In this document: positions 34,940 through 55,537 of the stretch, piece by piece
Position numbering within the stretch: position 1 is the first letter of the stretch
Layout of the letters: each line of letters starts with the position of its first letter
Origin: Marinifilaceae bacterium
Lineage (GTDB): Bacteria > Bacteroidota > Bacteroidia > Bacteroidales > Marinifilaceae
Length of the DNA: 64,000 nucleotides
Direction of reading: 5' to 3'
Assembly (NCBI GenBank): GCA_017936285.1
Contig: JAGBFU010000082.1
Coordinates: forward strand, 1-64,000
Notes under the pieces: generated by a model
The model's database searches: none
What the model was told of the DNA's origin: nothing
Seen by the model: the letters and a program-made list of their open reading frames with translations, nothing else
Translations under genes and position numbers: made by a program

Positions 34940-34975
34940 TGTCCTTTAAGGTTGCAAGGCACTTCCATACTTTTA
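34940..34975 (+). promoter_or_regulatory. Phage late promoter 1 (terminase unit)
   Basis: TGTCCTTT (34940-34947), 20 bp, TACTTTTA (34968-34975; one mismatch to TAnnTTTG). It lies 27 bases before the ATG at 35003. Confidence 0.65.
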
Positions 34976-35002
34976 AGTATTAAATCATTAAACCTTATCA
35001 GT

Positions 35003-35794
35003 ATGGCAAAACAAAAGACAAAACGCACGGCTCCGACCACCGAGGAGGCTCCACAGGAGCAAACCGCAAACTTCACTAACATAGAAGAGCGTCCACTTGA
35101 AGAATCATCGGAAAATGGTGAAGATTCAACACAGCATGATGAACAACCACCAATTTCCGGATTTCCTGTAATAATACCTTATCTACCCGGCACTCCTCTT
35201 GAAGCATTGCAAATGGCTGTGCTTGCATGGCACAAATTTTTCCTTGAGCCCCATGACATAATTGTTATCGGTGATATTCCCGAGGGCACCGAACTCGAAG
35301 CAAGGGTTATTCCTTTCTCTGATTATGCAGAGAGCTCACGTCTCTCTACATTGAAGATGATTCTTACATTCGTCTCGGAGTTCCCGGAACTTTCACACTT
35401 CATCCTCTCACCCGCAACAACCTTCTGCTTGCATCCATCGGGAATTGAAGATATTCAACTTCCTAAATGTGCTCTGCAAGACAAAAAGAACATTGTCTTC
35501 GAGACCGGACTGCCCATCTATTTCAGAACGGAGGCTCTTTTGTCATTATTCCACGACCTTTCACAGTCAGAGGATCCTGACTTTATTGGAGGTTACTATA
35601 TGCATTTCTACGCCGGTAGAAAACTATACTTGCTTAACATTGATGGCGATGACTTCCGTGTTCCGATTGGACGCCCAAACCCTAACATTGAGCGCCTACG
35701 TGAACTCGCAGAAAGAAAACTTTGGGCAACTGTCGCACCCGGAGTATGGTCTGTCACCATTCAACAAGAACTCAAGAGTCTTATTGAGAAATGA
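35003..35794 (+). CDS. Hypothetical phage protein with a GT-A-like opening
   Basis: About 263 residues. The frame is open from 34928, but the late promoter at 34940-34975 makes ATG 35003 (MAKQKTKRTAP) the start. After a low-complexity acidic linker, FPVIIPYLPGTPLEALQ and HDIIVIGD resemble the first strands of nucleotide-sugar transferases (GT-A fold). No clear DxD motif is seen, so the match is weak. It is the first gene of the terminase unit and overlaps the next gene by 4 bases. Confidence 0.5.
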   Translation: MAKQKTKRTAPTTEEAPQEQTANFTNIEERPLEESSENGEDSTQHDEQPPISGFPVIIPYLPGTPLEALQMAVLAWHKFFLEPHDIIVIGDIPEGTELEARVIPFSDYAESSRLSTLKMILTFVSEFPELSHFILSPATTFCLHPSGIEDIQLPKCALQDKKNIVFETGLPIYFRTEALLSLFHDLSQSEDPDFIGGYYMHFYAGRKLYLLNIDGDDFRVPIGRPNPNIERLRELAERKLWATVAPGVWSVTIQQELKSLIEK

Positions 35795-36450
35795 GAGAGG
35801 CTATCGAAGATTGGATAAACACTCAGTGCCCTTTAGACAAGGGCATTGAGTTGTATTCTCGCTATGGGAACTCACCTCTCTTCCTTGCTCAAGTTAAAAC
35901 AAATCCGGAAAGATTCAAACATCGCCTCTGGGCATCGCTCTACAATATCTATTTGAAATTATCTGCCGACACTCCAAGTCTGCATCGCGATAAATTCAGA
36001 GCCATATATCCATTCCTAAGCAGGACAAATTGCCCTCACGAACTTAAGATTCTGGCCAACGAGAAGATCTCTACCTACTGGAGAGTATATGATCTTCACA
36101 AGGAACTCTTCTCATGTAATAAGAATAGCGACTGTCTGCGAGTTGCCAAGGAACTTGTGGAGACATGGCTTGAAGATCGACAAATCAAAGAGGAGCTGGA
36201 CTATTATAAAGAGCACAATTCTCCCCTTGAGAAACACAGAATTTGGAATGACTATAAGAAGCTCAAAGGACTAAAGACATTATCCATCCGACAATTATGC
36301 TCTATGGAAAAGTGCCTTCAAAATGCCATTTGGAGGCTGAAGAAACAACTTACAGAAAACAAACAACCACATCTATACCACTCTCGCAAACAGAACCTCT
36401 ATGCCAAAGAAAAAGAACTCGCGCAAATCAGACGAATCCTTGACAGCTAA
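35791..36450 (+). CDS. Hypothetical phage protein, helical
   Basis: 219 residues, mostly helical and basic, with no recognised family. It starts in an ATGA overlap with the previous gene, and its last 50 bases overlap the next gene, which is long even for phage genes. Located between a possible glycosyltransferase and the small-terminase candidate, it may be a packaging accessory protein. Confidence 0.6.
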   Translation: MREAIEDWINTQCPLDKGIELYSRYGNSPLFLAQVKTNPERFKHRLWASLYNIYLKLSADTPSLHRDKFRAIYPFLSRTNCPHELKILANEKISTYWRVYDLHKELFSCNKNSDCLRVAKELVETWLEDRQIKEELDYYKEHNSPLEKHRIWNDYKKLKGLKTLSIRQLCSMEKCLQNAIWRLKKQLTENKQPHLYHSRKQNLYAKEKELAQIRRILDS

Positions 36451-37375
36451 GACTATCGAACTGTCCGAGGAGCAGCTTGCCGCCATTGAGAACCTATCGG
36501 CCTTAGGTAAAAGCAATGAAGAGATTGCCATGTATCTGAATGTCGATGCAGCTCTATTCAATGGTTATGCCCTCGATGAGAATAGCGACATTCACTACCA
36601 TTTGAAACGAGGCATCTTAGTTACCGCTCTGAATGAAGAGATGGCATTTCTTAAGGCTGCACAAGATGGTGACGACAAGGCCGAGAAAACATTATCCGAA
36701 ATTCGTTATCGACGCGATTTCAGGGCTGCCAGCCGACAATTCCTTTACACCGCCGAGTTTGGAGATTATAATATTAATCTGCTTCAGGATTACATTGAAA
36801 CCGGTAACGATGCCATGCTTAAGCCGGGGGAGCGCCTATATTTGGAGATGATGGTAATAATGATGTCCATGCAACGAAAGTACGGTCGTCAGAAAACAAT
36901 GGCAGTTTTTCAGAAACCACCTTTCAATATGCCTTATGCCAAAGTGAGAGATATGTATGAACAGGCAATAAACCTATTCTATATCGATTCTAAGGTGGAA
37001 AAGAAGGCTATGCGCAACCTTAAAGCACAACAGTTAGAGGATGCCGCCGAGATGGTTCGCAGAACCGCCACAACTCCCAAGGATTTCGAGACCTATGCAA
37101 AACTGATAAAGCTATCTGCCGAGATCCGCCAACTCAATCAACCCGAAAAGGATGATATCCCTAAAGGAACATTTGATAAACCAATACGTGTTTACACTCT
37201 GGATCCTGAACGTGTAGGCATTGCCCCTGTCAATAGACAAATATTGGCAGCACAAATCGACAGTATTAAGGGAGCTACCGAAGCAGAAAAACAACGTGTA
37301 CGTGCAGAAGCGGGAGTTGAAGATATTATACCTCTTGAAGATTTAATTAATGACACGACGCAAAATCAACAGTGA
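36401..37375 (+). CDS. Putative small terminase subunit
   Basis: 324 residues. A basic N-terminus (MPKKKNSRKS) is followed by a helix-turn-helix-like segment, LSALGKSNEEIAMYLNVD, as in small terminases that recognise the packaging site. The rest is helical. It overlaps the large terminase gene by 26 bases, which supports a shared function. It is longer than most small terminases, so a fused accessory domain is possible. Confidence 0.6.
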   Translation: MPKKKNSRKSDESLTAKTIELSEEQLAAIENLSALGKSNEEIAMYLNVDAALFNGYALDENSDIHYHLKRGILVTALNEEMAFLKAAQDGDDKAEKTLSEIRYRRDFRAASRQFLYTAEFGDYNINLLQDYIETGNDAMLKPGERLYLEMMVIMMSMQRKYGRQKTMAVFQKPPFNMPYAKVRDMYEQAINLFYIDSKVEKKAMRNLKAQQLEDAAEMVRRTATTPKDFETYAKLIKLSAEIRQLNQPEKDDIPKGTFDKPIRVYTLDPERVGIAPVNRQILAAQIDSIKGATEAEKQRVRAEAGVEDIIPLEDLINDTTQNQQ

Positions 37376-39080
37376 AGATCCTGCTGTTCATGCAGTATAT
37401 ATGAACTGGCTTGCACAGCTGGTCGGAATGATATGCCCCAGAAATCTGTTTCTTATCCTCGGACGAGGTTCCGGAAAGACCAACGACATTCTGACAGACC
37501 GTCTCATGGATATATGCTACGATATGCCCGGAGCTCCAATAGCATTGGTTGGAGACACTTACGATAACCTTAGCAAAAATATTCTCCCATCGCTACTTGA
37601 CGGACTTAATAGAAAGGGGTGGGTGGAGAATGTTCATTATGTAGTAGATAGAGAACCTCCCGAGGTTACAGAAGATATGCGCCAAGCAGCTCCGCCCGAG
37701 CTCAGGAGCCAGTTATGGACTCCATACAACAGGATCCTCTCTTATAAGCGTAAGATTATCTTCTTCACAGGCACCAACATCACCCTGGTATCACTGGACC
37801 GACCCAGTTCTGCTGCAGGTAACTCTTACGTTCATCTTATAGGCGATGAAGCAAAGTTTTTCCCTCCCCATAAACTTGCAAAGATGACAAAAGCTTTACG
37901 CGGTTACTTTGTTAAGTATGGAAAGAGTGTCTATTATAGAGGTCAGACATTCCTGACAGATATGCCTAACCCCAACCATGTCGGAGAATATGATTGGATT
38001 CTCAAACAATTCTCACGTATGAATGTTAAGGATATCATGATGGTTATAAAAACAGCTTTTGTTCTTAACGATGTGCGCCAGGAGGTGGCCGTTGCAAAAT
38101 GCGATTACAACACCAAAGAGCTTGCCAACAAAGAGAAACTGTTGAAACGATGGGAGGAGCGTTTTAACCTAGTACGTCGGAACTCAACATTCTGCTATGT
38201 GGCCAGTAGCTACATTAATTCGGATATTCTTCGTCCGGAATACTTTGCCGATGAGTTTGAAGGTGATTTAGACGATGTTAAAATCTCCATTCTATCGACA
38301 AAACCTCGCTTGGCAGCCGGCAATATGTTCTATGCCGGCATAGGCTCGAAACACTTCTATAACGACGGAACCTCGCCCAAATATGCAGACTATTTTGGAA
38401 CCCGAGAGAATGAGGATTGCAGAGTGCTGCGCTACTTGATTCCGGACAAGCCATTGGATGTGAGTATCGATTTTGGAAACATGATGTCTATGGTCGTCGG
38501 TCAGGAACAAGGAGAATATTTCCGCTGTCTCAAGAACCTCTACACACTCCCTCCTGCATGGATAAGGGAACTTGCCGATAAGTTCTTAGCCTTCTTTAAA
38601 GCTCATGAGCATAAAGTAATTAATCTATATTATGACCGTGCCGGTAATCAGTACCAGAAGGTAAAACAAGACTCGGCAGGAAAACTTAAAGCTGCCCTTG
38701 AAAAGGATGCAATGGGCAATTCCACCGGATGGAGAGTCAATCTTGAATCACGTAATCAACCCACTATATACACCTACGACGAATACGATTTTATGCTTGA
38801 GGTGATGGCTGAACGCTCTCCGAAACTTCCCAAGGTTCGTATCGATATGTACCACTGCAGAGAGTTAAAGGCATCGCTCGAGATGGCCGAAACTAAAATT
38901 ATTGAGGTTCGTGGTCGTAAAAAGGTCTCCAAGAAGAAAACCTCGGAAAAATTACCCTTCCACAGACTGCCCATGGAGTCAACCAACTTCTCAGATTCAT
39001 TCAAATATATGCTTATGAGAAAAAAATGGCTTCAACAGGTTAAGGCCCACGCTTCGGGAGTATCTCTCCCCATTGGATAA
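37350..39080 (+). CDS. Terminase large subunit (DNA-packaging ATPase/nuclease)
   Basis: 576 residues. Walker A GRGSGKT is at residues 38-44, and Walker B with the catalytic glutamate is in VHLIGDEAKFF near 160-170. The C-terminal nuclease domain shows DVSIDFGNMMS with the first metal-binding aspartate. The protein pumps DNA into the prohead and cuts concatemers. A 207-base gap follows, with an inverted repeat and the next late promoter. Confidence 0.88.
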   Translation: MTRRKINSEDPAVHAVYMNWLAQLVGMICPRNLFLILGRGSGKTNDILTDRLMDICYDMPGAPIALVGDTYDNLSKNILPSLLDGLNRKGWVENVHYVVDREPPEVTEDMRQAAPPELRSQLWTPYNRILSYKRKIIFFTGTNITLVSLDRPSSAAGNSYVHLIGDEAKFFPPHKLAKMTKALRGYFVKYGKSVYYRGQTFLTDMPNPNHVGEYDWILKQFSRMNVKDIMMVIKTAFVLNDVRQEVAVAKCDYNTKELANKEKLLKRWEERFNLVRRNSTFCYVASSYINSDILRPEYFADEFEGDLDDVKISILSTKPRLAAGNMFYAGIGSKHFYNDGTSPKYADYFGTRENEDCRVLRYLIPDKPLDVSIDFGNMMSMVVGQEQGEYFRCLKNLYTLPPAWIRELADKFLAFFKAHEHKVINLYYDRAGNQYQKVKQDSAGKLKAALEKDAMGNSTGWRVNLESRNQPTIYTYDEYDFMLEVMAERSPKLPKVRIDMYHCRELKASLEMAETKIIEVRGRKKVSKKKTSEKLPFHRLPMESTNFSDSFKYMLMRKKWLQQVKAHASGVSLPIG

Positions 39081-39248: not shown

Positions 39249-39284
39249 TGTCCTTTTCAAGGAGTTGAATCAAAAGTATCTTTG
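39249..39284 (+). promoter_or_regulatory. Phage late promoter 2 (portal unit)
   Basis: TGTCCTTT (39249-39256), exactly 20 bp, TATCTTTG (39277-39284), a perfect -7 box. The ATG at 39288 is four bases past the box. Confidence 0.75.
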
Positions 39285-39287: not shown

Positions 39288-39572
39288 ATGTTACTTTGGA
39301 AAGCAATAGAAGAAATGCGTGCTTTAACGGCAACCGGTAGGTACTTCTCATTCTCGTTCATGAGCTATAATGCTTCGAAGCTCAAGAGCGAAGGAGTGGT
39401 TGAAGTTGCCAAAGCACAGCTCAGAAAGAAGAGAGCCGGTAGCGGAGGCACATTGGCCGATGCTCTATTAGTCTATTACGACTACGATAAGCACGAATGC
39501 AGACAGTGCTACATCCCATTAATCATGACTTTTAACGGACATAAAATATCCATTCATAATGACAAAGAGTAA
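39288..39572 (+). CDS. Small hypothetical phage protein before the portal
   Basis: 94 residues. The segment YFSFSFMSYNASK and the end CYIPLIMTFNGHKISIHN are like short proteins found in Bacteroides prophages, with unknown role. ATG 39288 fits the family-like N-terminus but would make the mRNA leaderless given the promoter ending at 39284. ATG 39315 is the next choice. It overlaps the portal gene by 14 bases. Confidence 0.6.
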   Translation: MLLWKAIEEMRALTATGRYFSFSFMSYNASKLKSEGVVEVAKAQLRKKRAGSGGTLADALLVYYDYDKHECRQCYIPLIMTFNGHKISIHNDKE

Positions 39573-40926
39573 AGCAACCATTGAGAAGCTCGGAAGAGCA
39601 CGAATCATTCATATTCCTGACGTTGGAGGATTTCTCTATACCGGATTCTCTGAGAGTGTCTCATCGTCTTGGATGACACAGACAAGTAGCAACTGGGAAA
39701 CCTCGCCCACATCCGAATTGGGAGTTAATATCTTCCCCTTCGGACACGATAATATGCTACCCACTCACATCCGCAATATCATGGATGAGAATAATCTTGC
39801 TCCAGGAATTTTGGAAAGAGAGAAGGGATTACTATATGGCCAAGGCTTAGAGCTATATCGGAAGGTGTATAAAGATGGCGCCATTCAGCGCGAATGGTGT
39901 TACGACGATGATGTCTGGGGGTGGCTTAAGAGTTGGGACTATATGAGATATGTTGAGATGGCCATCACAGAATACAAGTATCTGCATGGGTTCTTCGATA
40001 AGGTGTATGCTTCCAAAGGAAAGAGAATTGGTATTAAGCGTATTGCCAAGCTGGAGGTTGTGCCAGGTATAAATGTCAGAATGGGATGGGTAGATAGTCG
40101 CCGCTTGGAAGATGTTTCCAAAATCTATGTGGCCGACTGGGAGAACGCAACAGGGGAAGTTTCCGAATACAATGTGTTCAATAGGGAGCGCTTCCTTGAC
40201 GAGAAGAATTACCCCAACGTCACTATGAGCTATCACAACTCATACTCCTATGCTCGCAGTATATACTCTATCCCCTCATTCTATGGAGCTTTGAACTGGA
40301 TTAAGAGATCTTCCGATGTTCCAGTAATTCTTAAATACATCACAGAGAATAGTATTAATGTTGCCTATCATATTCAATCGCCGGCTCTTTTCTGGCAACA
40401 GAAGAGAGAAGAGCTGGAGACAGAGTGTGCAGCTAAAGGCAAAACATTCAACGACAGTATGCTGGAAGAGCTGAAAAATACCATTATGTCAAAGTTGGCC
40501 GAAACCCTTTCAGGAAAGAAGAATGCCGGTAAGTTCTTCCACACTATAAGTCTGGAGGATGACAATGGAAAACCATGGGAGTGGAAAATTGAGCCCATTG
40601 ATCAAAAGATAACCGACTTTATTGAGGCACAGATAAAGGTCTCTGAGAAAGCCGACAGTGCCACAACCTCGGGCATTGGCTTACACCCTGCCCTCTCGAA
40701 TATCATGGTGGCAGGTAAGCTATCATCCGGCAGCGAAATGCTCTATGCGCTGAAACTTTACTTGGGTTCTGATACTGCAATCCCGGAGGCTATCATCTTA
40801 CAGAGCTTAAACAGAGCCATTGCCATTAATTTCCCTGACAAGGATCTGCAGCTTGGATTCTATCACCAGGTAATAATGAAAGAAGATGAAGTATCACCAT
40901 CTAATCGATTAAAGAATAATATATGA
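39559..40926 (+). CDS. Phage portal protein
   Basis: 455 residues, without a named motif, but with the size, helical C-terminus and position of a portal. The segment TSPTSELGVNIFPFGHDNML near the N-terminus and SGIGLHPALSNIM near the C-terminus are as I recall from Bacteroidetes phage portals. The portal forms the dodecameric vertex for DNA entry. It overlaps the next gene by 4 bases (ATGA). Confidence 0.7.
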   Translation: MTKSKATIEKLGRARIIHIPDVGGFLYTGFSESVSSSWMTQTSSNWETSPTSELGVNIFPFGHDNMLPTHIRNIMDENNLAPGILEREKGLLYGQGLELYRKVYKDGAIQREWCYDDDVWGWLKSWDYMRYVEMAITEYKYLHGFFDKVYASKGKRIGIKRIAKLEVVPGINVRMGWVDSRRLEDVSKIYVADWENATGEVSEYNVFNRERFLDEKNYPNVTMSYHNSYSYARSIYSIPSFYGALNWIKRSSDVPVILKYITENSINVAYHIQSPALFWQQKREELETECAAKGKTFNDSMLEELKNTIMSKLAETLSGKKNAGKFFHTISLEDDNGKPWEWKIEPIDQKITDFIEAQIKVSEKADSATTSGIGLHPALSNIMVAGKLSSGSEMLYALKLYLGSDTAIPEAIILQSLNRAIAINFPDKDLQLGFYHQVIMKEDEVSPSNRLKNNI

Positions 40927-41891
40927 GCCTACCAGAAACAAAGCTTCTCTTCTCAAACATTGAAGAGATAAGACAATACGCCCCTTTCATTTATGCTAAC
41001 ACTCCGTTCGAGGAGTTAAAGCATGATATTATTTTAGGTGCAGAATCTCTGTGTAATGTAGTCGGAACCGAGATTTACGACAGAGCTATCGCCAACATTG
41101 ATAATCCCAAGGCTGAAGATATAGATAAATGGCTAATATCGTACATGCGATATCCGTTAGCTTTATTAACATATATATCATATGCAGCCAATGCAGATAT
41201 CAGCCATGAGGGCGATGGTCGCCGGGTAAAACTCGACAAAGAGAGGGAGTCTATGCCCTGGCAATGGCAAATAGAGCGTGATGATGCAGCTCTTCGTTTA
41301 AAGGCAGAAAAGGGGATTGAACGCCTGATTAAATTCTTAGATGCCAATCTGAAATTCTTTCCTGAATGGAAAGAGTGTGAACAGAGAAAAGATATCAACT
41401 CTTTATTTGTGTCGTCGGCGCTTATCATGAATACCTATGTGCCCATCGATGCATCACGAGCTTTCTATATCCGATGTCTGCCATTCATCAGAGCTGAAGA
41501 GAGCGAATTGGGAGGTATTATTGGCTCTACCGAGAAAGAGAACTTACTACAGCACATCTCTGATAAATCATTGAGTGATTCAGAAGCTTCACTTGTTAAT
41601 GCTATACGCAGATATATTTCATGCATGGTTATGGCCAAGGCCATACGTCACTTCTCGGTATCGATATTACCGGAATCGGTAACATGCAGATTTGAATCGC
41701 CGAGTCAGACACAGAAGGCAAGCACAGTTCCCACGGTTGAGTTGCTCTCAAGAATAGAGAATAGCTATCTAAGCGAAGCAAAGGGAGCCTTTGGCACCAT
41801 ACAGACCCTTGTCGCCCTACCTCCTGCAGAGAGTGACAATGATTTTGGTGGAAGCATAGGTAATCATCGCGATAAATTCTTCAGCGTATGA
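40923..41891 (+). CDS. DUF6712-like head-tail connector candidate
   Basis: 322 residues beginning LPETKLLFSNIEEIRQYAPF, the style of DUF6712 proteins that follow the portal in Bacteroidetes phages. No enzymatic motif. A head-completion or adaptor role is inferred from position. Four-base overlaps with both neighbours show tight translational coupling. Confidence 0.6.
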   Translation: MSLPETKLLFSNIEEIRQYAPFIYANTPFEELKHDIILGAESLCNVVGTEIYDRAIANIDNPKAEDIDKWLISYMRYPLALLTYISYAANADISHEGDGRRVKLDKERESMPWQWQIERDDAALRLKAEKGIERLIKFLDANLKFFPEWKECEQRKDINSLFVSSALIMNTYVPIDASRAFYIRCLPFIRAEESELGGIIGSTEKENLLQHISDKSLSDSEASLVNAIRRYISCMVMAKAIRHFSVSILPESVTCRFESPSQTQKASTVPTVELLSRIENSYLSEAKGAFGTIQTLVALPPAESDNDFGGSIGNHRDKFFSV

Positions 41892-42769
41892 TAAGCATCG
41901 AGGCTTTTGAGAATGGCCACATGGCCGATATCCCCGAGAACTGGGATGAGTGCACACCGGAACAGCTGAGATTTATCTTTACTCAAGTCGCAGATCTTCT
42001 CTCCGGAAATATTACCATGGATGAATTTAAAGTAGGGGTGTTCATCCATCTTGCAGGTATCAAGATAAGAAAAATATACGGACTGCATGATAAGATGCTT
42101 TCCCGAGAACAATACGAACAAAAATACTCTACTATTGCCCGGTTGGCAAATTTAGCCACGGAGTGGATGTTTGTCAAAGAGGGTAAAACTATACGGTTCG
42201 ATTATGCTGCCATCAGGAACCCGATGCCCGATATCAGGTGCGGATTGTTTAAGTATCATGGTCCGGAACACCTGTTTGCAGATGTAACCTTCGGGGAGTA
42301 TAGAGTGGCCTACGACTACTACACTCGATATTTATCAAGTCAGGATCCTCAGGATTTATCGTGTCTGATCTCGGCTCTGTACAGAAGGAACCGACGCCGT
42401 CCATTCTCGGCAACTAAAAGCATTGAACATGCGAATCGGTTCTCCCGCCTATCTCCTATCGATAGGCAGATTATCTGCTCCTGGTTCGGGGCAGCTGACC
42501 ACTTTATAAAAACCTCAGATCTGTGCGTTGATGGACGTATTATCAACTTTACCCCTCTGTTTAAACAGGATAAACAAGCAAGCGCCCTCGATGACGACTA
42601 CGGAGCTCCTGCGCCTTTGGGAATTACCGGCATCCTGATTGCTGTGGCCGATAGCGGAACATTCGGTACCGCCGCACAGGTAGAAGCAACTCCTTTAATC
42701 GATATCTTACTCAAATTGTATCACTGGCACTGTGAAAGCCGCCGACTAAAACAGAAATATAATGATTAA
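41888..42769 (+). CDS. Hypothetical phage head/tail-region protein
   Basis: 293 residues, no recognised domain. The N-terminus (PENWDECTPEQLRFIFTQVA) and the C-terminal helix rich in basic residues suggest a structural or assembly protein. It overlaps the following gene by 8 bases. Function unknown. Confidence 0.6.
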   Translation: MISIEAFENGHMADIPENWDECTPEQLRFIFTQVADLLSGNITMDEFKVGVFIHLAGIKIRKIYGLHDKMLSREQYEQKYSTIARLANLATEWMFVKEGKTIRFDYAAIRNPMPDIRCGLFKYHGPEHLFADVTFGEYRVAYDYYTRYLSSQDPQDLSCLISALYRRNRRRPFSATKSIEHANRFSRLSPIDRQIICSWFGAADHFIKTSDLCVDGRIINFTPLFKQDKQASALDDDYGAPAPLGITGILIAVADSGTFGTAAQVEATPLIDILLKLYHWHCESRRLKQKYND

Positions 42770-43647: not shown

Positions 43648-43688
43648 CCACGTATAGACAAAAGAAGAAAAGGAATAAGGCAAACAAC

Positions 43689-45759: not shown

Positions 45760-48700
45760 ATGGCAAAAAGCAATCTTACTGCAGAGGATCTTGTCCTCAA
45801 TATTATTATCAACGGAGACCCCGGAAAAAAGGAACTGAAATCCCTAGAAAAGAGCATTAAAGATACCCGAAATTCAACGGACAAACTTCTTAAAGAACAA
45901 AAGAGGTTAGAGCAATCTATTGCTAAACTTACAAAGTCATCACAAACAGAAACCTCAGAGTATAAAAAGAAGATTGAAAAGCTTGACGAAGTTAAGAAGA
46001 GTATTGAGGAAAATAATCGGGCCATTGAATTAGCAGAAAAGAGACAACAAAAAATAATCTCAGGATTAAAACTCGAGAATAAGTCAATTTCGGATCTTAA
46101 CAAGGAGAGAAAAAAACTAATAAATCTAAGGAATGCTTCAACACCTGATAGTAAGGAATTTAAGAAGTATTCTGCAGAAATTGATATCCTTACCAGTCGC
46201 TTACGTGATTTAAGAGCCGAATCAACCAAAACATCTGATGCTTGGGCTAATTGGCAGAAGATATTTATTACTACAAATAGTATTTTCGAATTAGCTGAAA
46301 ACCTATTTTCAAGAGTCGAATCCTTTATAACAAAATACACCGATGTTGCCGTTGCTTACGAAGATACTCTTGCCGATGTGCGCAAAACCACAGGCTTAAC
46401 TGACACGGAAGTTCGTGCCCTTAGTGAAGATCTTGAAAACATTGACACAAGAACATCACAACAGGAGCTTATGGAACTTGCACGTGTTGCCGGCAAGTTA
46501 GGTATTGAAGGACACGACAATATAAAAGGTTTCGTTAATGCTGCCAACCAAATCAACGTGGCCCTAAGCGAAGATCTTGGGGGAAACGCAGAAGAGGCAA
46601 TCAACCAGGTTGGAAAATTGGTTGATATTTTTAAAGTTAGCGATACCTACCCTACCGAAGAATCAATGCTCAAGGTGGGAAGTGCTATCAATCGACTCGG
46701 AGCATCATCGACTGCTAACGAGGGGTATATTGTGGACTTTACAAAAAGAGTTGCAGGTTCTGCTGCCCCATTAGGTGTTTCCATTGCAAACACAATGGGA
46801 TATGCCGCCACATTGGACCAATTGGGCCAAGCAAGTGAAGCGTCGTCATCGGTATTCTCGAAGGTTGTTACCGGAATGTTTAAAAATACTGCAGAGTATG
46901 CCAATGTTGCCAATATGGAGGTCGGAGCATTTAAAGATCTTCTGCAGAACGACGCAAACGAAGCCTTCTTAAGAGTTCTTGAGGGATTACAAGGTAACAA
47001 TGAAGGCATGGAGCGCTTGGTTGCCAACATGGGCGAGGTAGGCGAAAATGGTGTTCGTGCCATTGCAGTTCTTGGAACCTTGTCTTCTAATACAAAGATA
47101 CTACGTGAGCAACAATTAATAGCGAATAGTGCTTTTGCTGAGGGAATAGACCTTACCAACGAGTACAACATTAAGAATAACAACGAAGCTGCCACGATTG
47201 AGAAAAAGCGTAAAGCCAATGAGGCATATCGCCGAGAGATTGGAGAAAAACTTTTGCCTTTACTTAATGTTTCCATGACGTTTAATAACTGGCTTACACG
47301 TCAAGGTTACAACATAATAAAATTTTTAACTGACAATAATAAAGCTACCCTGACTATTATAGGGACAACTGGGGTTTATATTGGAATTTTAAAGATTAAA
47401 AATTTGTTGCAAACATCAAGTATCCTTCTTCATCTCAAAGAATCCGCTGCCAAAATCAAAAACATATACGCAACACAAGGATTAAATGCCGCGTCAAAAG
47501 CTTTATTCTCTACCCTTGTAAAACATCCATATCTTCTATTAGCCACAGCTATAGCAGGATTTATCACTTGGCTTAAATTATCCATGAAACAAACCTCTTT
47601 AGCGGAAGCGGCTATTAAACGTGCCACTGTAGCCAAAAAGAAATTAATAGACATTGAAAAATCTTCAATCTCTCAATACGAGGAACAAGCATCAAAAGCA
47701 GCCGTTCTATTCAGACAAATGCGACAAACTAATGCCGAGACAGAGGAGAGAAGAAGACTTGTTGAGGAGTTAGATGGACTAATGCCCGGATTAATCAATA
47801 AAGAGGAGTTGATGAGTGCTAAGATTGCCGATTTGGCAACTAAAGAACGTGAGTACCGAGCTGAATTAGCACAAACTATCCGTTTACAAAAGAACCGAGA
47901 GAAATTTACGGCACTTGAAGAGCAGAAGATAGCTCTTGAAGAGGCTCTTGAAGCGAGAAAGACAGAGTTGGAAACAGTTGAAAGATTATACAACTTACCT
48001 ACCAGCCAAATGAAAGCTACCGGGTACTCTGCCACCGGCACATATTTTTCGCATGCTAATGAAGGGGGGAACCTATACGAGGCGCACCTTGCTACTGCTC
48101 GCAAGAATCTTCAAGAGGTAATTGATGCTATTGCTAAAATCAACGAACAACAAAGTCAATTAGTCTTAACACCCACTGTTACAGACCCCGGCAAAAAGAG
48201 CAAAACAACTACGGATCCAGAGACTGTGACAAATTCAGACTCCACCACTCTCAAAGCTTCAGACTCCACCACTCTCAAAGCTTCAGAAGCTGCTCTTAAG
48301 GCGGAGAGGGACAAACTCCAGAACCTTGTCAATGAGCTTGAATCTATCGAGACTCAACGTTATGCAGATGGCCTTACGGCAAAAGAGGAGTATGATGCAA
48401 AGATGCAACTTCTGAATTTGGCAAACCTGAATGCACAACTTAACCAGGCTAAGTTGTTGGGAGAGGATACTACAACACTGGAAACCCAGATTGCCAAAGA
48501 GCGTATTAAGATTGCCGAGGAGCTTGGTGCGGCTCTGAATGAGCTCTATTCAGCCGATATTGCCGGTGTGAGTCTTGATAACTTTATTGGTGATAGCGAT
48601 ATCGATTCTTTAATCGGCCAAATTTTAGATAGTAAAGCCTCCCTATCGAACAAGGCGTCAAGCGATAACCAGGCTAAGCAGAAAAGAGAAGAGGCCCTTA

Positions 48701-49626
48701 AGCGTTATGGATTGGACAAAGATCCGAAAAGTCAGGGTTCACTACGTGAGCAACAGAATAGCGAGTTAAACCAGTTGGCAGCCGATGAGCTTGCCGGAGT
48801 AATCACTCATGAAGAGGCTGAAGCTGCAAAATTGGCCATAGATAAAAAGTATCGAGACCAAAGAGTCAAGGTTGCTCAGCAGGGGTTCTCAATCATCAAT
48901 CGAGGTCTAAGCGCAGCCACGGACCTTTTCTCTGCCCTCAAGGAGAAAGAGCTTGCTGCAGCAGGTGATAACGAGGAGAAGAAGGAGCAAATCCGAAAGA
49001 AGTATGCCAAAAAGGAGAAAGCCCTGGCCATTGCCCGAGCTATCACCGATGGAGCGTTGGCCATTATGTCTATCTGGAGTGGTACGATTACAAAGAACCC
49101 ATTGGTCGATAGCATTATCAAGGGTGTGCTAACTGCTGCACAGGTGGCCATGAACGCTGTTCAGATTGCAACTATCCGTTCTCAGCAGTTTGCTACAGGT
49201 CGATATCCAGTTATAGGTGCTGATGACGGCCATACCTACTCTGCCGAGTTTGCCGGTACTCCGAGCACCGGGATATACTCTCAGCCCTCGCTCGGACTGT
49301 TCAGTGAGAAGGAACCGGAGATGGTGGTGGACGGTCGTACAACTCGACGTTTGGTGTTTGATTATCCCCATATCTACAACTCCATTATGACTATCGCAAG
49401 GGGCGGTACTCCACAATTTGCTCAGGGGCGCTATCCGGTTTCTGACGGAGCAGCACTGCCCATGGCGGGGTTGGGAGCGGATCCGGAGATTAAAGCTCTG
49501 CTCCGTGCTAACATGGCCATGATGGATACTTTGAATAAGAAACAGCTTAAGATTAATTGGTACGGTAAGGGTGGAATTTCCGACTTTGCCAAGAAAGCTG
49601 CCGTCTTTGAACAAACCGTTAAATAA
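45760..49626 (+). CDS. Tail tape measure protein (TP901-like)
   Basis: 1288 residues, the longest gene of the prophage. The N-terminal 170 residues are coiled coil. The TP901 core follows (VAYEDTLADVRKTTGLTDTE, then LMELARVAGKLGIEG and AINRLGASSTANEGYIVDFT). There are hydrophobic segments in the middle and at about 1085-1140 (ITDGALAIMSIWSGTI). Tail length is set by this protein; 1288 residues would suggest a tail near 0.19 micrometre by the usual 0.15 nm per residue. A 24-bp tandem duplication lies at 48234-48281. It uses late promoter 3. Confidence 0.88.
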   Translation: MAKSNLTAEDLVLNIIINGDPGKKELKSLEKSIKDTRNSTDKLLKEQKRLEQSIAKLTKSSQTETSEYKKKIEKLDEVKKSIEENNRAIELAEKRQQKIISGLKLENKSISDLNKERKKLINLRNASTPDSKEFKKYSAEIDILTSRLRDLRAESTKTSDAWANWQKIFITTNSIFELAENLFSRVESFITKYTDVAVAYEDTLADVRKTTGLTDTEVRALSEDLENIDTRTSQQELMELARVAGKLGIEGHDNIKGFVNAANQINVALSEDLGGNAEEAINQVGKLVDIFKVSDTYPTEESMLKVGSAINRLGASSTANEGYIVDFTKRVAGSAAPLGVSIANTMGYAATLDQLGQASEASSSVFSKVVTGMFKNTAEYANVANMEVGAFKDLLQNDANEAFLRVLEGLQGNNEGMERLVANMGEVGENGVRAIAVLGTLSSNTKILREQQLIANSAFAEGIDLTNEYNIKNNNEAATIEKKRKANEAYRREIGEKLLPLLNVSMTFNNWLTRQGYNIIKFLTDNNKATLTIIGTTGVYIGILKIKNLLQTSSILLHLKESAAKIKNIYATQGLNAASKALFSTLVKHPYLLLATAIAGFITWLKLSMKQTSLAEAAIKRATVAKKKLIDIEKSSISQYEEQASKAAVLFRQMRQTNAETEERRRLVEELDGLMPGLINKEELMSAKIADLATKEREYRAELAQTIRLQKNREKFTALEEQKIALEEALEARKTELETVERLYNLPTSQMKATGYSATGTYFSHANEGGNLYEAHLATARKNLQEVIDAIAKINEQQSQLVLTPTVTDPGKKSKTTTDPETVTNSDSTTLKASDSTTLKASEAALKAERDKLQNLVNELESIETQRYADGLTAKEEYDAKMQLLNLANLNAQLNQAKLLGEDTTTLETQIAKERIKIAEELGAALNELYSADIAGVSLDNFIGDSDIDSLIGQILDSKASLSNKASSDNQAKQKREEALKRYGLDKDPKSQGSLREQQNSELNQLAADELAGVITHEEAEAAKLAIDKKYRDQRVKVAQQGFSIINRGLSAATDLFSALKEKELAAAGDNEEKKEQIRKKYAKKEKALAIARAITDGALAIMSIWSGTITKNPLVDSIIKGVLTAAQVAMNAVQIATIRSQQFATGRYPVIGADDGHTYSAEFAGTPSTGIYSQPSLGLFSEKEPEMVVDGRTTRRLVFDYPHIYNSIMTIARGGTPQFAQGRYPVSDGAALPMAGLGADPEIKALLRANMAMMDTLNKKQLKINWYGKGGISDFAKKAAVFEQTVK
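48234..48281 (+). repeat. 24-bp in-frame tandem duplication in the tape measure gene
   Basis: Two identical 24-base units give the 8-residue repeat SDSTTLKA in a linker region. Confidence 0.9.
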
Positions 49627-49634
49627 TCAATTCT

Positions 49635-51248
49635 ATGCTTCATCTATATCTTGCCAATAAAGAGGCTCGCTTGTCGGCCGACACAGAAATCACACTGAAA
49701 TTAACTAATGAGTGGTTTAAGGATCGCGAAACAGAACATTCATTCCCCTTTACATTAAAATTGGAGGCTAATCGACACATTTTCGGTTTCCCTGAACGCC
49801 CGGGTAACCATGCATTGTCCCGATATATGGCTCTCCATGGTAAAACGTATTCGATTGTCATGCCGGCATTCATCACCTATGGGGGTGTAACATTACTGTA
49901 CGGAAATGCCAGAATTACCTCGGTGAGTAATACCGAAGTGGAACTGTTCTGCTATTCCGGCGAATACGATTTTTGGAAGGCTATGGAGACATATCGATTA
50001 GGTGAATTACCCGAGGGCATTAGAGAGATGTTTGATGTGGAGATATCCAATAGTGGACATTATATGGATAAAACTACATTATTATCGAAACTCGATAATT
50101 ATTCACTTGCCGTGAGTGCCAATGAAGCCATCATGTGCTTCCCTCAACTATATGATCCAACAATGACATCAATTCCAGGAGAAACATCTAAAATTCATCC
50201 ATATTGGTTGAATTACCGAAATGGTCTGAATTTGGTTTCTGAAGTAAACAGCAAAGCTTGTATCTTTCTTCCCTGTCCCAATATGTCTAAGATTATGGAA
50301 ATAATTCTTGCATGCTTAGGCTACTCGGTAAAATTCTCATCGCTTGAAAATGGTATTTTCCCACAAGTCTATATCGTTTCGCGACGTAAATACATTTCCT
50401 TGGCTCACTACACATCCGAACTAACGTACTCCATTTGTCTTACCGACTTTCTTCCTAAGATTACTTTCCGCGAGTTTTTAGAGGAGATTGAAAGAAAATT
50501 CTGTGTTCTCATTCAACCTCTTTATCCCTTATATTCCTTAGAAGGAGATAAAAAGGTAAATATGATTTCTTTCGATACTTACATCAATAACACCCCTCCT
50601 ATTGAATTGGAGGTTTTGGATGATTGCGAAAAAGAGGTTCTGGAGAACGATGATATTGTAGCAGACTATCGGTTCAAAGATGAAGATCCTTCCGACGATG
50701 CCATTAATGGCGAGGTTATGGACGTTAAACCTATAAGCCTCGAAGCCACCAGCACTCTCGATGGAATGGGCGAGAATTCGGATGGAGTTAAAAGTATTGA
50801 GTGTATTTCTGCACCAATAGCTAAGTTCATGGATGACGTTGACTCTGACTATAAAGGGGTAGCTGTCATATCTTCAGGTGATACTGGAAATATCGACATT
50901 AATAATGAAGAAGAGTGGTTTGCAGGGGAAATTGCCAATCGCAACAAGGAATTCCGAATTGCTCTCTCAAAAAGTGGTTTTAATCTTACCCCCGAGTATA
51001 GCGAAACCGAGAGTTTGGTATGGGAACATCTGAGGAAACTTTACGATACGCGATATGATTTTATTCATGGGCAATTTATGTGCGTGGAGTTTATTCTGAA
51101 ACACCCGGTTCAAGCCTTAAACCAAATTAAGTATCTATTCTCTCGTCCTGTTATTATCAGAAACCTTAAATATCTGGTTGCAGAGCAGAATATAAGTTTC
51201 AAAGGAACTACTATTGAGTATCGAATCAAGTGCTATCCGGTATCTTAA
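49635..51248 (+). CDS. Distal tail or baseplate protein
   Basis: 537 residues, beta-rich, starting 8 bases after the tape measure. The N-terminus (LHLYLANKEARLSADTEITL, then FPFTLKLEANRHIFGFPER) resembles Bacteroides phage proteins that follow the tape measure and probably form the distal tail ring or tip. No enzymatic motif is evident. It ends the tape measure unit; late promoter 4 begins two bases after its stop. Confidence 0.6.
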   Translation: MLHLYLANKEARLSADTEITLKLTNEWFKDRETEHSFPFTLKLEANRHIFGFPERPGNHALSRYMALHGKTYSIVMPAFITYGGVTLLYGNARITSVSNTEVELFCYSGEYDFWKAMETYRLGELPEGIREMFDVEISNSGHYMDKTTLLSKLDNYSLAVSANEAIMCFPQLYDPTMTSIPGETSKIHPYWLNYRNGLNLVSEVNSKACIFLPCPNMSKIMEIILACLGYSVKFSSLENGIFPQVYIVSRRKYISLAHYTSELTYSICLTDFLPKITFREFLEEIERKFCVLIQPLYPLYSLEGDKKVNMISFDTYINNTPPIELEVLDDCEKEVLENDDIVADYRFKDEDPSDDAINGEVMDVKPISLEATSTLDGMGENSDGVKSIECISAPIAKFMDDVDSDYKGVAVISSGDTGNIDINNEEEWFAGEIANRNKEFRIALSKSGFNLTPEYSETESLVWEHLRKLYDTRYDFIHGQFMCVEFILKHPVQALNQIKYLFSRPVIIRNLKYLVAEQNISFKGTTIEYRIKCYPVS

Positions 51249-51249: not shown

Positions 51250-51285
51250 TGTCCTTTAATCTGAGAGTTCAAATTGATAATATTG
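51250..51285 (+). promoter_or_regulatory. Phage late promoter 4 (baseplate/fibre unit)
   Basis: TGTCCTTT (51250-51257), exactly 20 bp, TAATATTG (51278-51285; one mismatch). The ATG at 51290 is five bases past the box. Confidence 0.65.
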
Positions 51286-51289: not shown

Positions 51290-52411
51290 ATGGAATTTAT
51301 ACAGAAACCCGACCAATTGACATTTGCCGCCACGATGCCCGATTTCATTGTCAGCGGGATAGGACTAAGTGCGCAAGTTACTCTTTATAAAGATACTGAT
51401 AAAGTCCTTCTCAAAGAGACAATGTTCCCATCGGATAAAGGGCTTGTCATTGACGTAAAAAAAATAATTAATGACTCATTAAGAGTAAAGATTCCTACTA
51501 GCTCTATCTTCCATCAAGACGAGGCTTTGGGATTATTTAAACTAGTAGTTATATCAAAAGGAGAGACTATTGAGTATAGTTTCAATGCTCTACGTGGTGG
51601 ATATGAAGATTATAATATCCCTTCTCGCTACAATGCAATGGAACTTATATACTCATTTCAACCATCTATAAAACAAATCACTACAGAAAGTCCTGAGTGG
51701 CTTACATTCTTTATTCCGTTAAGTACTCTAAGAATCAGATTTCGTTATTATTTATCTCACGGTGCATTATGCGCTACAACTTATATTGATTCCCCATACT
51801 CCTCTACTAAAAATAATGCAGGTCTATTCAATATTGATTGTTCATACTCTGCTGCATATAAACTTTCATTAACGGCAGGGGGAATCTATTTTGCTTATTA
51901 TGACGTTGATTTAGTATCTGAAGGTAATGGTTCAATTACTCCCGTTACCCCCACTCAACGATTTCTGATTACTCAAGCTACCAATGCGCACAAATACTAT
52001 CTCTTTGAAAATACATTAGGAGGGATTGATACTCTTATCTGCACTGGCGACCTTACACGTAGACTCTCCATGTCATCAGATATCACCATATCTGATGACA
52101 TTAAAGATGACTCTTCAAATACCCACTCTCTGAGTTTTGAACAAAGTGTCGGTATTTTTACTTCAGAGATAGAATTAATGTGGTTTCGCGACTTTATTCT
52201 TTCATCACAACGATATGAGGTAAAAGAAGAACACTTGTATCAAATAATAATCGAAGAGGCAGATTCCGAAATCAACCTTGCAGATGCAGATGTGGTGAAT
52301 TTCTCCTTCAGAAGAGCAAGTGAGGATAAGTATTTCGGATTTGCACGCAAACGGATGGAGCTCCCGACAGGATTAATTTTCGACGGTCCTGGAGATGTCA
52401 ATTTTTTTTGA
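51290..52411 (+). CDS. Tail/baseplate protein
   Basis: 373 residues, beta-rich (FIQKPDQLTFAATMPDFIVS), no family recognised. It follows the distal tail gene and precedes the fibre genes, so a baseplate or fibre-adaptor role is likely. The gene ends AAT TTT TTT TGA: eight Ts (52402-52409) next to the stop form a T TTT TTT slippery heptamer, and a -1 shift would fuse it to the next small frame. Its ATG lies at the predicted start site of late promoter 4. Confidence 0.6.
   Translation: MEFIQKPDQLTFAATMPDFIVSGIGLSAQVTLYKDTDKVLLKETMFPSDKGLVIDVKKIINDSLRVKIPTSSIFHQDEALGLFKLVVISKGETIEYSFNALRGGYEDYNIPSRYNAMELIYSFQPSIKQITTESPEWLTFFIPLSTLRIRFRYYLSHGALCATTYIDSPYSSTKNNAGLFNIDCSYSAAYKLSLTAGGIYFAYYDVDLVSEGNGSITPVTPTQRFLITQATNAHKYYLFENTLGGIDTLICTGDLTRRLSMSSDITISDDIKDDSSNTHSLSFEQSVGIFTSEIELMWFRDFILSSQRYEVKEEHLYQIIIEEADSEINLADADVVNFSFRRASEDKYFGFARKRMELPTGLIFDGPGDVNFF
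52402..52409 (+). other. Poly-T slippery sequence, possible -1 frameshift
   Basis: Eight Ts immediately before TGA contain T TTT TTT in the zero-frame phase. After a -1 slip the ribosome reads TTG ATG CCT and continues to 52596. Confidence 0.4.
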
Positions 52412-52596
52412 TGCCTCTGTTGAGTGACTATCCGGAAGCTTCAACAGAGCAAGATTTATTGATTCCGGTACAAGTAAAAGGAGAGAAAGAGTGGAGACAT
52501 TTATCACTTAACTCTCTATCAATTGGTAGTGGACAATGCCTATACGAAACAAGCATTGAATATCCAATTATCACAAAACTGACAATAACAACTTAA
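52411..52596 (+). CDS. Small tail-region protein or frameshift extension
   Basis: 61 residues from ATG 52411 (MPLLSDYPEASTEQDLLIPV), overlapping the previous TGA by one base. It is in the -1 frame relative to the upstream gene, just past the T8 run, so it may be made as a fused C-terminal extension of 51290-52411 or by re-initiation. No family is recognised. Confidence 0.5.
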   Translation: MPLLSDYPEASTEQDLLIPVQVKGEKEWRHLSLNSLSIGSGQCLYETSIEYPIITKLTITT

Positions 52597-52608
52597 AAAA
52601 TAATCATT

Positions 52609-53565
52609 ATGGCAACTAAAATTTCTGCAACCAACATTATGCCTGCACATGCTTTTGGCCCATATGAAGCTTACGCAGGATTGACAGAAGCTCAAAAGGG
52701 TCAATTTATACATTTCAATACCGATCCTGAAGATAGCGAATTTTCCGGAACCATTGCATTCAGAGGCTTCCTTTTTGGAAAAGGACGTATCCCTACTGCT
52801 GTAACTAACATGGGCGATGGAACGATTAAAATAACAATGAAAGGAACTGATGACATTGTATCAACATCGTTAAAAGCCTCGAAAACAACATTCGGATTTG
52901 TTAAAACTACAGACTCTATCTCAGAAGCAAATAATGATGTGTCATTAGTACCTACTTATAGTGTCGTTTATGCTTTATATCAAGACAAAGCACCTAAGGC
53001 AAATCCTGTTTTTACAGGAGTTCCTCAGGCTCCTACCCCTACATCTGATACTACTCTTACACAAATCGCCACTATTGAATATGTACGAAATAAAATCGCA
53101 GCTAACGATGCTATGAGATATTGTGGTACATTAGGGACTGGAGGGGATGTTTCAGAATTACCAAGTATATCATTAGATACTGTAAAGAATGGAGACAAAT
53201 ATGTCGTTGCCTCTGCAGGAACCTATAATGGTATTCCATGTAAAGTTGGAGACAGTTTTATTGCAAATAAAATAAATAATAATATCGCAGACAAATGGAA
53301 TTATATTCCTTCTGCAAACGAAAACGAAACTCTTCTGCATTATACAACATCTCCTTCTGCCGTCACTCTAACTACGACATCCAAGTATGGAACAATCATA
53401 CTCGGTTCTGCAGCAACTAAGATTGCCGCAATAAGTGGTAACACGTCTGCATCTAATAGCGATGAATATGTACCAACTGTTAAATATCTTGAGAATTCAG
53501 TTGCTACATTAAGAAACGACGAAATACTTACCAAAGTCGGCTCAATATCTTCAACAACCCTATAA
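52609..53565 (+). CDS. Tail fibre protein, ended early by an in-frame TAA
   Basis: 318 residues. The sequence has typical fibre repeats (APKANPVFTGVPQAPTP, then TLTQIATIEYVRNKIAAND) found in Bacteroides phage fibres. The stop TAA at 53563-53565 is followed in the same frame by 100 more codons (53566-53868) that include the conserved fibre-tail motif NGLMSATDKANLDAI. The gene is therefore either broken by one nonsense change or read through to make two forms. Confidence 0.65.
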   Translation: MATKISATNIMPAHAFGPYEAYAGLTEAQKGQFIHFNTDPEDSEFSGTIAFRGFLFGKGRIPTAVTNMGDGTIKITMKGTDDIVSTSLKASKTTFGFVKTTDSISEANNDVSLVPTYSVVYALYQDKAPKANPVFTGVPQAPTPTSDTTLTQIATIEYVRNKIAANDAMRYCGTLGTGGDVSELPSISLDTVKNGDKYVVASAGTYNGIPCKVGDSFIANKINNNIADKWNYIPSANENETLLHYTTSPSAVTLTTTSKYGTIILGSAATKIAAISGNTSASNSDEYVPTVKYLENSVATLRNDEILTKVGSISSTTL

Positions 53566-53868
53566 GCTTCGGCAGGAACAAAAGGACAAGCCGGTACCCC
53601 ATACTCCATCGAACTCAAAGAGATTAACACTACGCAAGGCTCAGTTGGTCTAACAAGTGCTATATCTCCTGGATTTGGAGAAAAGATTACTATTTTTTCT
53701 GGTACTACCGATAAGTATGGAAGGGTTACTAATAATGGCTCATTTGATATTACTCTGCCCAGCGCTGTAGCAAGCAATACCAAAAATGGCCTTATGTCAG
53801 CTACAGACAAAGCAAATCTTGATGCTATAGTGGCCGGGTGTGTATGGTATGAAACTTCAATCTCTTAA
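53566..53868 (+). pseudogene. C-terminal part of the tail fibre, downstream of the in-frame TAA
   Basis: 100 codons in frame with 52609-53565, without a start of their own, from ASAGTKGQAGTPYSIELK to WYETSIS and TAA at 53866. NGLMSATDKANLDAI is a common C-terminal motif of phage fibres. The next fibre gene starts two bases later. It is expressed only by readthrough, or is a remnant. Confidence 0.7.
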
Positions 53869-53870
53869 CT

Positions 53871-55010
53871 ATGGTCAAAAGAATCGCCAAGGGTATCCCT
53901 GGAGTAGTCCTTTATGAAAAATACTCTGATTATTTAACTGATTCCGAAAAAAAAAGGAGCGAATTCCACCTTGTCAAAGAGGGACATCGAATTATTGTTG
54001 GAGGGGAGACATACTCCTCCAACAAATTCAGTTTATGTGGATCAGATTCAGCCAATTCAAACGGTTGGTATAGATTTGGTACAATTCAATGTAATAATAC
54101 TGATAATGTTAATGTTAATATTATCGCCTCCATAATGGAAACATTCAATAGTCCATACTCCGGCATATTTGTTTTACAAGCAAGACACAATTCAGCAGAA
54201 GCTTGGACTATTACGAAATTACAATGGTTATCTCGCATCGGATTTAGTACAACATCTATCAGATGTATCCCTAATGGAGATACAATTGCGCTATATGCAT
54301 ACAAAACTACTACTCAGTATAGTCGTTTGGCAATTAAGATTCTTACTGAGTATAATTATAATTCAGATGAATCATTTCTAACTTTAAACGATAGTAGTTC
54401 TCCAGAATCTAACACACCTATAGGGATCAATATTAATGCTGAATGTGTGACCAAAGCATCTATTGCTAATGAAGTTGTACACCCGTTACAATTAAACGTC
54501 ACCGACACAAATTCAACAACGATTAACTATAATGGAAGTGCGCCTAAGTCGATATCATTCCCCATACAAAATATTCAAGATGGATTTACAGGAACTTCAG
54601 ACATCGCTTTACGTCAAAGTAATAGAACTTTCTGCGCAATAGCAAATGGAGGAAATAATATTATTGATGGAACTCCATATAGAATTATCAAACTGGAAGA
54701 TTACTCTGTATTTAATCGTCATTCGCCACAGAATGGAGATCTATTATTTTTATGGCTGAAAAATAGTGTTAGCCCTGTCACATCCGGCTACCCTGTGTAT
54801 ATTCCCTCGACAAGTTCAGGAGAAAACTCGTTCGCTCAATGTATACACTTATATCATGGCCAAAGTGCCGGCACCCCTAAAGAATGGGCCAACTCAACAT
54901 CTCTTAATGCGGGATTTTATCTTTTTGTATACTGCACAGCGATTCAAGGGAGCAATGCAACTACCGCTGGCGGATGGGTATTCTTGTATCGAAACGTATC
55001 AACTACATAA
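53871..55010 (+). CDS. Tail fibre or receptor-binding protein
   Basis: 379 residues, beta-rich, rich in Ser, Thr and Asn, with no enzymatic motif. It is the last structural gene, two bases after the fibre extension, where the host-recognition tip is usually encoded. The lower GC content compared with the terminase and capsid genes fits frequent exchange of fibre genes. Confidence 0.6.
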   Translation: MVKRIAKGIPGVVLYEKYSDYLTDSEKKRSEFHLVKEGHRIIVGGETYSSNKFSLCGSDSANSNGWYRFGTIQCNNTDNVNVNIIASIMETFNSPYSGIFVLQARHNSAEAWTITKLQWLSRIGFSTTSIRCIPNGDTIALYAYKTTTQYSRLAIKILTEYNYNSDESFLTLNDSSSPESNTPIGININAECVTKASIANEVVHPLQLNVTDTNSTTINYNGSAPKSISFPIQNIQDGFTGTSDIALRQSNRTFCAIANGGNNIIDGTPYRIIKLEDYSVFNRHSPQNGDLLFLWLKNSVSPVTSGYPVYIPSTSSGENSFAQCIHLYHGQSAGTPKEWANSTSLNAGFYLFVYCTAIQGSNATTAGGWVFLYRNVSTT

Positions 55011-55021
55011 TTTATACTATC

Positions 55022-55447
55022 ATGAGAAAAATATTCTACAACTCCATCGTGGCAAAGATTCTGCTTTGTCTTAGTGCGTGTACTACCATCACCATAGGTT
55101 GTTTTATTTGCACTAAAAAAAGTTCATTACCCCAACGGACCATTAATCATGAATCGACACACGTATGCCAATTCAATGAATTATTTGTGTTAACCTCTGC
55201 TATCGTAATGATTAGTACATGGATCTTTAATGCTCCATTATTCATATTGGTAATTCCATTCATATCTTGGTGGTTATTCTATGGATTAGAGTGGTTGATC
55301 AGATTATTTATATCCATTTTTAAAAGAAAAATAGATCTGTTTGCCATATATAAATCCCTCTCCTTCGAACGCGAAGCTTATGCTCATGAGTACGATGATC
55401 ACTATGTAGAAAACAGACGCTATTTTTCCTGGCTTAGACTAATTTAA
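55022..55447 (+). CDS. Membrane protein with an HExxH motif
   Basis: 141 residues from ATG 55022. It has an N-terminal membrane segment, then TINHESTHVCQFNE, in which HESTH fits the HExxH zinc-protease pattern. A hydrophobic hairpin follows (FILVIPFISWWLFYGLEWL), then a conserved-looking SLSFEREAYAHEYD. This layout resembles small uncharacterised Bacteroidetes membrane proteins (HERIH...SFEREAY). In the phage it stands between fibre and holin genes, so a lysis or envelope-modification role is possible but not shown. Upstream in-frame starts (54974) lie inside the fibre gene. Confidence 0.6.
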   Translation: MRKIFYNSIVAKILLCLSACTTITIGCFICTKKSSLPQRTINHESTHVCQFNELFVLTSAIVMISTWIFNAPLFILVIPFISWWLFYGLEWLIRLFISIFKRKIDLFAIYKSLSFEREAYAHEYDDHYVENRRYFSWLRLI

Positions 55448-55501
55448 TCTCTATTTGCCATATCATTGAGCTCCGGTTATCTGATTGTCCGGAGCTCTCC
55501 C

Positions 55502-55537
55502 TGTCCTTTCAAGCATATTAATAATGAGTCATATTTG
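55502..55537 (+). promoter_or_regulatory. Phage late promoter 5 (lysis unit)
   Basis: TGTCCTTT (55502-55509), exactly 20 bp, CATATTTG (55530-55537; one mismatch at the first base). The holin ATG at 55542 is five bases past the box. Confidence 0.7.

Follow-up and report, generated by a model that had tools for sequence, protein, structure and literature searches.

How are the late genes of Bacteroidota phages switched on, and which protein recognises their promoters? This question is raised by a complete-looking prophage of about 36 kb in a metagenome-assembled genome of a Marinifilaceae bacterium, which was studied in a stretch of 64,000 nucleotides (contig JAGBFU010000082.1, positions 1 to 64,000; called the window here, with all coordinates referring to it). 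The original prediction, made from the sequence of the window, had drawn attention to the octamer TGTCCTTT, repeated at exactly 20 bp from a host-like -7 box before late units, and had suggested that a phage factor reads this box while the host sigma factor remains on the -7 box. From the comparative analysis described here we consider it quite likely that these sites are late promoters under common control in a large group of temperate Bacteroidota phages, and that a phage activator acts on the octamer, most likely a protein of 164 amino acids encoded at 30211-30705 on the plus strand.

All five predicted copies of TGTCCTTT followed after 20 bases (N20) by [C/T]AnnTTTG, or by a form with one mismatch, were found on the plus strand at their expected places. 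They are located at 34940-34975 (-7 box TACTTTTA; with a homologous site in the related locus G038) before the packaging unit of 35003-39080, at 39249-39284 (TATCTTTG) before the portal and head-tail unit of 39288-45697, at 45701-45736 (TAGCTTTG) before the tape measure unit of 45760-51248, at 51250-51285 (TAATATTG) before the tail and tail-fibre region of 51290-55447, and at 55502-55537 (CATATTTG) before the lysis region of 55542-56936, these units all lying on the plus strand. The -7 box YAnnTTTG is exact at three of the five sites and has one mismatch at the other two. The only other TGTCCTTT of the window is on the minus strand at 53581, within a gene. The gene contexts could be sustained for the terminase (large subunit 37350-39080), the portal (39559-40926) and the tape measure protein by profiles and homologues, and for lysis by an endopeptidase-like gene at 55999-56409. 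The label baseplate for the fourth unit was not confirmed, as 51290-52411 had no PHROG match; a tail-fibre match was obtained at 52609-53565. At the tape measure promoter two boxes are found (45701-45725), TGTCCTTT and a partial TGTCCTTA at 45718, 17 bp downstream.

A sixth site, CGTCCTTG-N20-TAATTTGG at 31174-31209 on the plus strand, precedes the head maturation protease and the capsid, both supported by profiles and homologues, and the next gene (31179-34147, plus strand). It had been described as a degraded copy, and the site itself proved to be conserved: most relatives carry [ACG]GTCCTTT before the head protease in the same position and with the same spacing as in the window. Judged from this pattern, the sixth site is a genuine, consistently variant member of the promoter set.

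In the prophage the combination of TGTCCTTT and a -7 box with up to one mismatch at N20 occurs five times on the plus strand and not once on the minus strand, while 300 dinucleotide shuffles yielded it 0.017 times on average and never more than once, so the argument that identical spacing at five places is unlikely to be a product of chance holds. The relatives used for comparison are terminase-related loci from viral and genome contigs; many of these loci are incomplete, and those related to one another do not count as independent cases. The box, its spacing and its gene positions are common to about 100 related phage contigs, whose G+C content ranges from 33 to 63%. Porphyromonas prophages are among them, and the named carriers of TGTCCTTT include Polaribacter phage Leef, Cellulophaga phage Ingeline, Bacteroides phage BT-TP2 and Porphyromonas phage018a. 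According to the record titles the hosts belong to the Bacteroidales, Flavobacteriales, Sphingobacteriales and Cytophagales. The original proposal, in which a phage-specific upstream box stands before late units at a set distance from the host -7 box, matches the comparative data throughout the phylum.

Among about 115 relatives, TGTCCTTT occurs 167 times on the strand of the late genes versus 35 times on the opposite one, close copies included. The spacing was examined at 138 distinct plus-strand sites with the octamer alone fixed and a match of five out of six to TAnnTTTG scored. The -7 box followed after exactly N20 in 62% and after N19 in 12% of the sites, and none was found at 17, 18, 21 or 22 bases; the 13 octamers of the minus strand had no -7 box at 19-22 bases. 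In a set of 173 clustered sites the -7 columns were strong and the spacer was free between two strong elements, the columns of the box being strong by construction. An unbiased pattern scan of IMG/VR was compared with a permuted box by the context of the sites rather than by totals. Among the matches listed, the start of an open reading frame was found within 45 nucleotides at 72 of 129 box sites versus 19 of 120 sites of the permuted box (Fisher p ~5e-11).

In some phages apparently without TGTCCTTT a box of their own is repeated three to five times at the same places, with the positions and spacing of the TGTCCTTT promoters, for example CATGTCTTAAA, CATGTCACAA, TGTTACAA, TGTCCTCTTAA or CGTCCTAA. 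Flavobacterium phage 6H has CATGTCTTAAA, also given as TGTCTTAA, at four sites, a Muricauda prophage (L059) TGTCCTCT at four, and phages of the L012 type TGTTACA at four. Phage laban6-1 carries CATGTCACAA, also given as TGTCACAA, at five sites, which are five of its six occurrences of TGTCACA. TGTCACA is seen at three sites of L023 and GCGTCACAA (GTCACAA) at three sites of L061. Weak cases are L064 and L021 with GTCACAA at one place each and L020 with TGTAACGC at two places, and in L018 no box could be discerned. Since the box changes jointly at all sites of one phage, the factor reading it is likely encoded by the phage. Flavobacteriaceae are the hosts of 6H, laban6-1, Ingeline and Leef alike, yet these four phages share no single box; the host therefore does not account for the variant. 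The box varies by phage lineage and not by host, as would be expected if the factor is encoded by the phage.

Many relatives (among them L043, L069, L072, L083, L100-L102, L113 and L129) have a GCAATTGC-like palindrome in the spacer beside the box at the promoter after the capsid gene. It is absent from their remaining late promoters and is possibly a second regulatory input.

In the window the ATG of 39288-39572 begins three nucleotides past the -7 box, and the ATGs of 51290 and 55542 begin four nucleotides past it. An ATG at exactly four nucleotides was found in 46 of the 173 clustered sites and, among the matches listed of the IMG/VR scan, in 10 of 129 versus none of 120 for the permuted control. 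In Flavobacterium johnsoniae transcripts start 4-5 nucleotides past the -7 box, and the majority of leaders exceed 10 nucleotides (PMC6847099). In late genes with the ATG at this distance, transcription therefore probably begins at the A of the AUG and yields leaderless mRNAs; the counts imply such mRNAs for roughly one late promoter in four in this group of phages. With a start at the A of the AUG the octamer would span -40 to -33.

This is the place of the host -33 element, and the original prediction had stated that the host TTG is replaced at late sites, while cargo and early genes keep TTG or another host-type pattern. TTG is indeed kept at N19 or N20 in the host-type promoters of the CI-like repressor (22752-23141, minus strand; TTG-N20-TACTTTTG), the Cro-like early gene (23222-23467, plus strand; TTG-N19-TACCTTTG) and the 164 amino acid protein (promoter at 30154-30183, plus strand; TTG-N19-TACATTTG, without a late box), and it sits there at the very position that the box occupies in the late promoters. 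The activator genes of the relatives generally have no late box upstream either. In 142 late sites TTT is followed by G in 5%, so that a -33 element of the TTTG/TTG type is generally missing. The replacement matters less than was supposed, since for one Bacteroidota species at least a weak -33 element has been described (PMC6847099).

The 164 amino acid protein first attracted attention because its tblastn matches among the relatives were confined to box-bearing phages. In relatives the homologous gene is the second one before that of the head protease, as in the window, where a gene for 137 amino acids at 30760-31173 (plus strand), also conserved in position, lies in between. A family of 57 members was gathered with a hidden Markov model from terminase-linked loci. 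In seven full-length phages and prophages that were profiled the family was present in all seven, and with Leef and laban6-1 in nine altogether; it was the only non-structural one among the profiled window proteins to be found in all seven, the primase for example not being found in two of them. For four box-bearing phages of the Cyclobacterium type without a neighbouring copy a homologue was predicted, and it was found elsewhere in the record at 148-160 bits. Phages with variant boxes gave weak matches to the family of 17-77 bits.

A search of 395 Bacteroidia genomes with the 164 amino acid protein alone yielded nine new matches. Three had too little flanking sequence for a judgement, and the remaining six all bear boxes. 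In G330, G364 and G235 the box is TGTCCTTT; G494, G439 and G168 each have three or four copies of NGTCCTA, spaced at exactly N20. The box with its fixed spacing and positions and its lineage variants is in this way co-conserved with the protein family. On the tree of the candidate activators the class of the box requires two changes, and none of 500 shuffles needed as few. In the presumed recognition stretch members from TGTCCTTT phages mostly have [L/I]KKxxYR and those of the main variant clade mostly L[R/S]x[L/M]xxR. The proposal of a phage factor reading the upstream box, with host sigma on the -7 box, has thus gained support from sequence comparison and a conserved candidate.

The protein of the window had no PHROG or Pfam match; phrog_21888 matched five of the 57 family members. 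A search of viral contigs with an alignment of two activator sequences gave no matches, and an alignment of ten was too diverged for a family search. A tblastn search of the named phages with the window protein likewise gave no match, because the family diverges fast. In Leef a structure match in BFVD indicated an uncharacterised protein, and the hidden Markov model then placed a family member in this phage at the expected place.

A confident AlphaFold model of the protein (predicted local distance difference test, pLDDT, 93) consists of a predicted alpha/beta N-terminal part and three C-terminal helices. The top row for the whole model was a small terminase (4xvn, Z 5.7, 54 residues, root mean square deviation 2.7), and the next rows include several winged-helix regulators; with the C-terminal part alone mostly histone folds were listed (Z about 4), with no clear helix-turn-helix. 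All of these similarities are below the level of kinship.

Several points weigh against the 164 amino acid protein as the activator of these promoters. Its model had no significant match to solved folds in Foldseek/VIA searches, for which reason DNA binding was derived from the arrangement of the helices and from covariation. The covariation of box class and protein is in turn confounded with the phylogeny of the phages, with just two box switches on the tree. Conservation is just as strong in the adjacent structural genes, and gene order by itself therefore does not single out this protein. In a few relatives (L040 and L082) a box-like element precedes the activator gene, so the cascade may differ there. 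Finally, the evidence is comparative throughout, and the transcription starts, the late timing, the binding of DNA, the activation and the contact with sigma are inferred from it.

The box might be read by another phage protein, the 164 amino acid protein having a different role. One choice would be the early LuxR/GerE-like regulator at 23512-24096 (plus strand), which has a helix-turn-helix-like C-terminus and homologues in G038, G060, Ingeline and 6H, with one annotated also in Leef and laban6-1. No homologue was detected, however, in BT-TP2 or Porphyromonas phage018a, which both have TGTCCTTT promoters, whereas the 164 amino acid family is present in all phages compared for this gene. The LuxR-like gene moreover belongs to the early region and is shared by phages with different boxes (6H and Ingeline). 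It was set aside as the reader, and a different phage reader in general is considered unlikely. Equally doubtful is a sigma factor or polymerase-modifying protein of the phage that uses TGTCCTTT as its -33 element. Such a protein would explain that the box is exactly at the -33 place and that its spacing resembles the TTG-N19/20 promoters of the same prophage, but the -7 box remains the host consensus, none of the 57 family members matched the sigma-factor Pfam models, and no sigma factor was among the scanned proteins of the prophage.

As the phages are temperate and the box overlaps the -33 region, where a bound protein could block sigma, the box could also be the operator of a repressor which silences the late promoters in the lysogen. 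The near absence of a TTG at the late sites suits dependence on an activator better than the blocking of a strong promoter, and the box stands in front of units for virion and lysis proteins and not at the CI/Cro switch, which makes this explanation very improbable. Slightly less credence still is given to the view that a host factor binds the box or that it belongs to a general type of host promoter, for which the host consensus of the -7 half would speak. All three matches of the strict pattern in the host genome assembly lie within the prophage, and in 295 Bacteroidia genomes the strict pattern was no commoner than a reversed control (about 30 versus about 71 matches, summed from the table), which therefore argues for a phage element and no host promoter type. 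In addition, phages of related Flavobacteriaceae differ in their box, and phages from several Bacteroidota orders have one in common.

With a phage activator as the preferred explanation, a sequence of events can be proposed. After induction, host-type promoters would drive the early genes and the 164 amino acid protein. This protein would bind the octamer (TGTCCTTT in the window, presumably at -40 to -33) beside sigma region 4, so that the octamer takes over the usual -33 contact while host RNA polymerase with its primary sigma factor keeps the -7 box TAnnTTTG. By recruiting or isomerising the polymerase at five to six promoters simultaneously, the activator would switch on packaging, head, tail and lysis units together, and about a quarter of the promoters would start at the A of the AUG to give leaderless mRNAs.

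The system works most like the middle promoters of phage T4 and also resembles the late activators of the Mu C kind, and is a member of neither on the features tested. In T4 the activator MotA, with AsiA (sigma appropriation), serves many promoters of one class whose -35 element has been replaced by its box, (a/t)(a/t)(a/t)TGCTTtA, centred at -30 with 12+-1 bp to the -10 of host sigma, which is kept (PMC2988021). Common to both are a phage box in place of a -35-type element, a retained -7 or -10 and many promoters per genome, whereas the distance between TGTCCTTT and its Bacteroidota -7 box is 20 bp, the genes served are presumably late instead of middle ones, and no partner resembling AsiA was identified. 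Kinship of the 164 amino acid family with MotA was not detectable in Pfam or PDB searches. In the case of Mu C/Mor a small phage protein is reported to switch on several late promoters with host polymerase (PMC4461284), as is proposed here. None of the 57 candidate activators matched the Mor family of Pfam, and the Mu C complex 9l0x appeared in Foldseek at a non-significant E of 8.8. Mu C binds a longer dyad site; the box described here is an octamer without obvious dyad that abuts the -33. Ogr of P2 and Delta of P4 are further small activators, each coordinating the late promoters of a number of operons. The zinc-finger protein Ogr has its sites near -55, unlike the arrangement in the window. 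With the Bacteroidota sigma-ABfr promoters (TTTG / TAnnTTTG) the late sites share the -7 box, the -33 element being replaced by the phage box at near-invariant spacing.

The prophage is flanked by a 16 bp direct repeat, GTCGAGATGACTGGAC, at 22686-22701 and 58645-58660, the left and right attachment-site repeats. The one on the right coincides with the 3' end of tRNA-Pro(CGG), from which it follows that the prophage sits at a tRNA gene. Its gene order is a CI/Cro-type switch at 22.7-23.5 kb, the primase, a cargo region, the late region at 31-57 kb and the integrase at 57270-58505. Between primase and candidate activator, the cargo region encodes a Schlafen/AlbA_2-type protein (27905-29590) with no homologue in the compared relatives, possibly a defence or regulatory cargo. 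A gene for 132 amino acids on the minus strand (34226-34624) between the capsid and packaging units is mobile cargo; a homologue with 40% identity sits elsewhere in the G060 prophage. In the Bacteroides phage BT-TP2 (L386) a large tail gene is followed by a reverse transcriptase gene (40959-42254), which points to a diversity-generating retroelement.

Bacteroidota phages are abundant in the gut and in the sea, and the timing of their late genes appears to be undescribed. In a literature search, with most subscription papers outside its reach, no late promoter or late activator was found described for them, in agreement with the initial remark that no such regulon was known. With somewhat less assurance than for the promoters themselves, though still on the side of probability, the finding may be taken to represent a new activator family without recognisable relative among solved folds, which supplies its own -33 contact and runs one late regulon across the four orders, with switches of box specificity and leaderless mRNAs. 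Consensus, candidate protein and isolated model phages (Ingeline, Leef, 6H, laban6-1 and BT-TP2) make it directly testable, the variant boxes acting as natural specificity swaps. It also raises the question of how an activator helps sigma-ABfr exactly where its weak -33 contact lies. If true, it would allow operons and activity to be annotated in many prophages and would offer a small orthogonal pair of promoter and activator for the genetics of Bacteroides and Flavobacterium.

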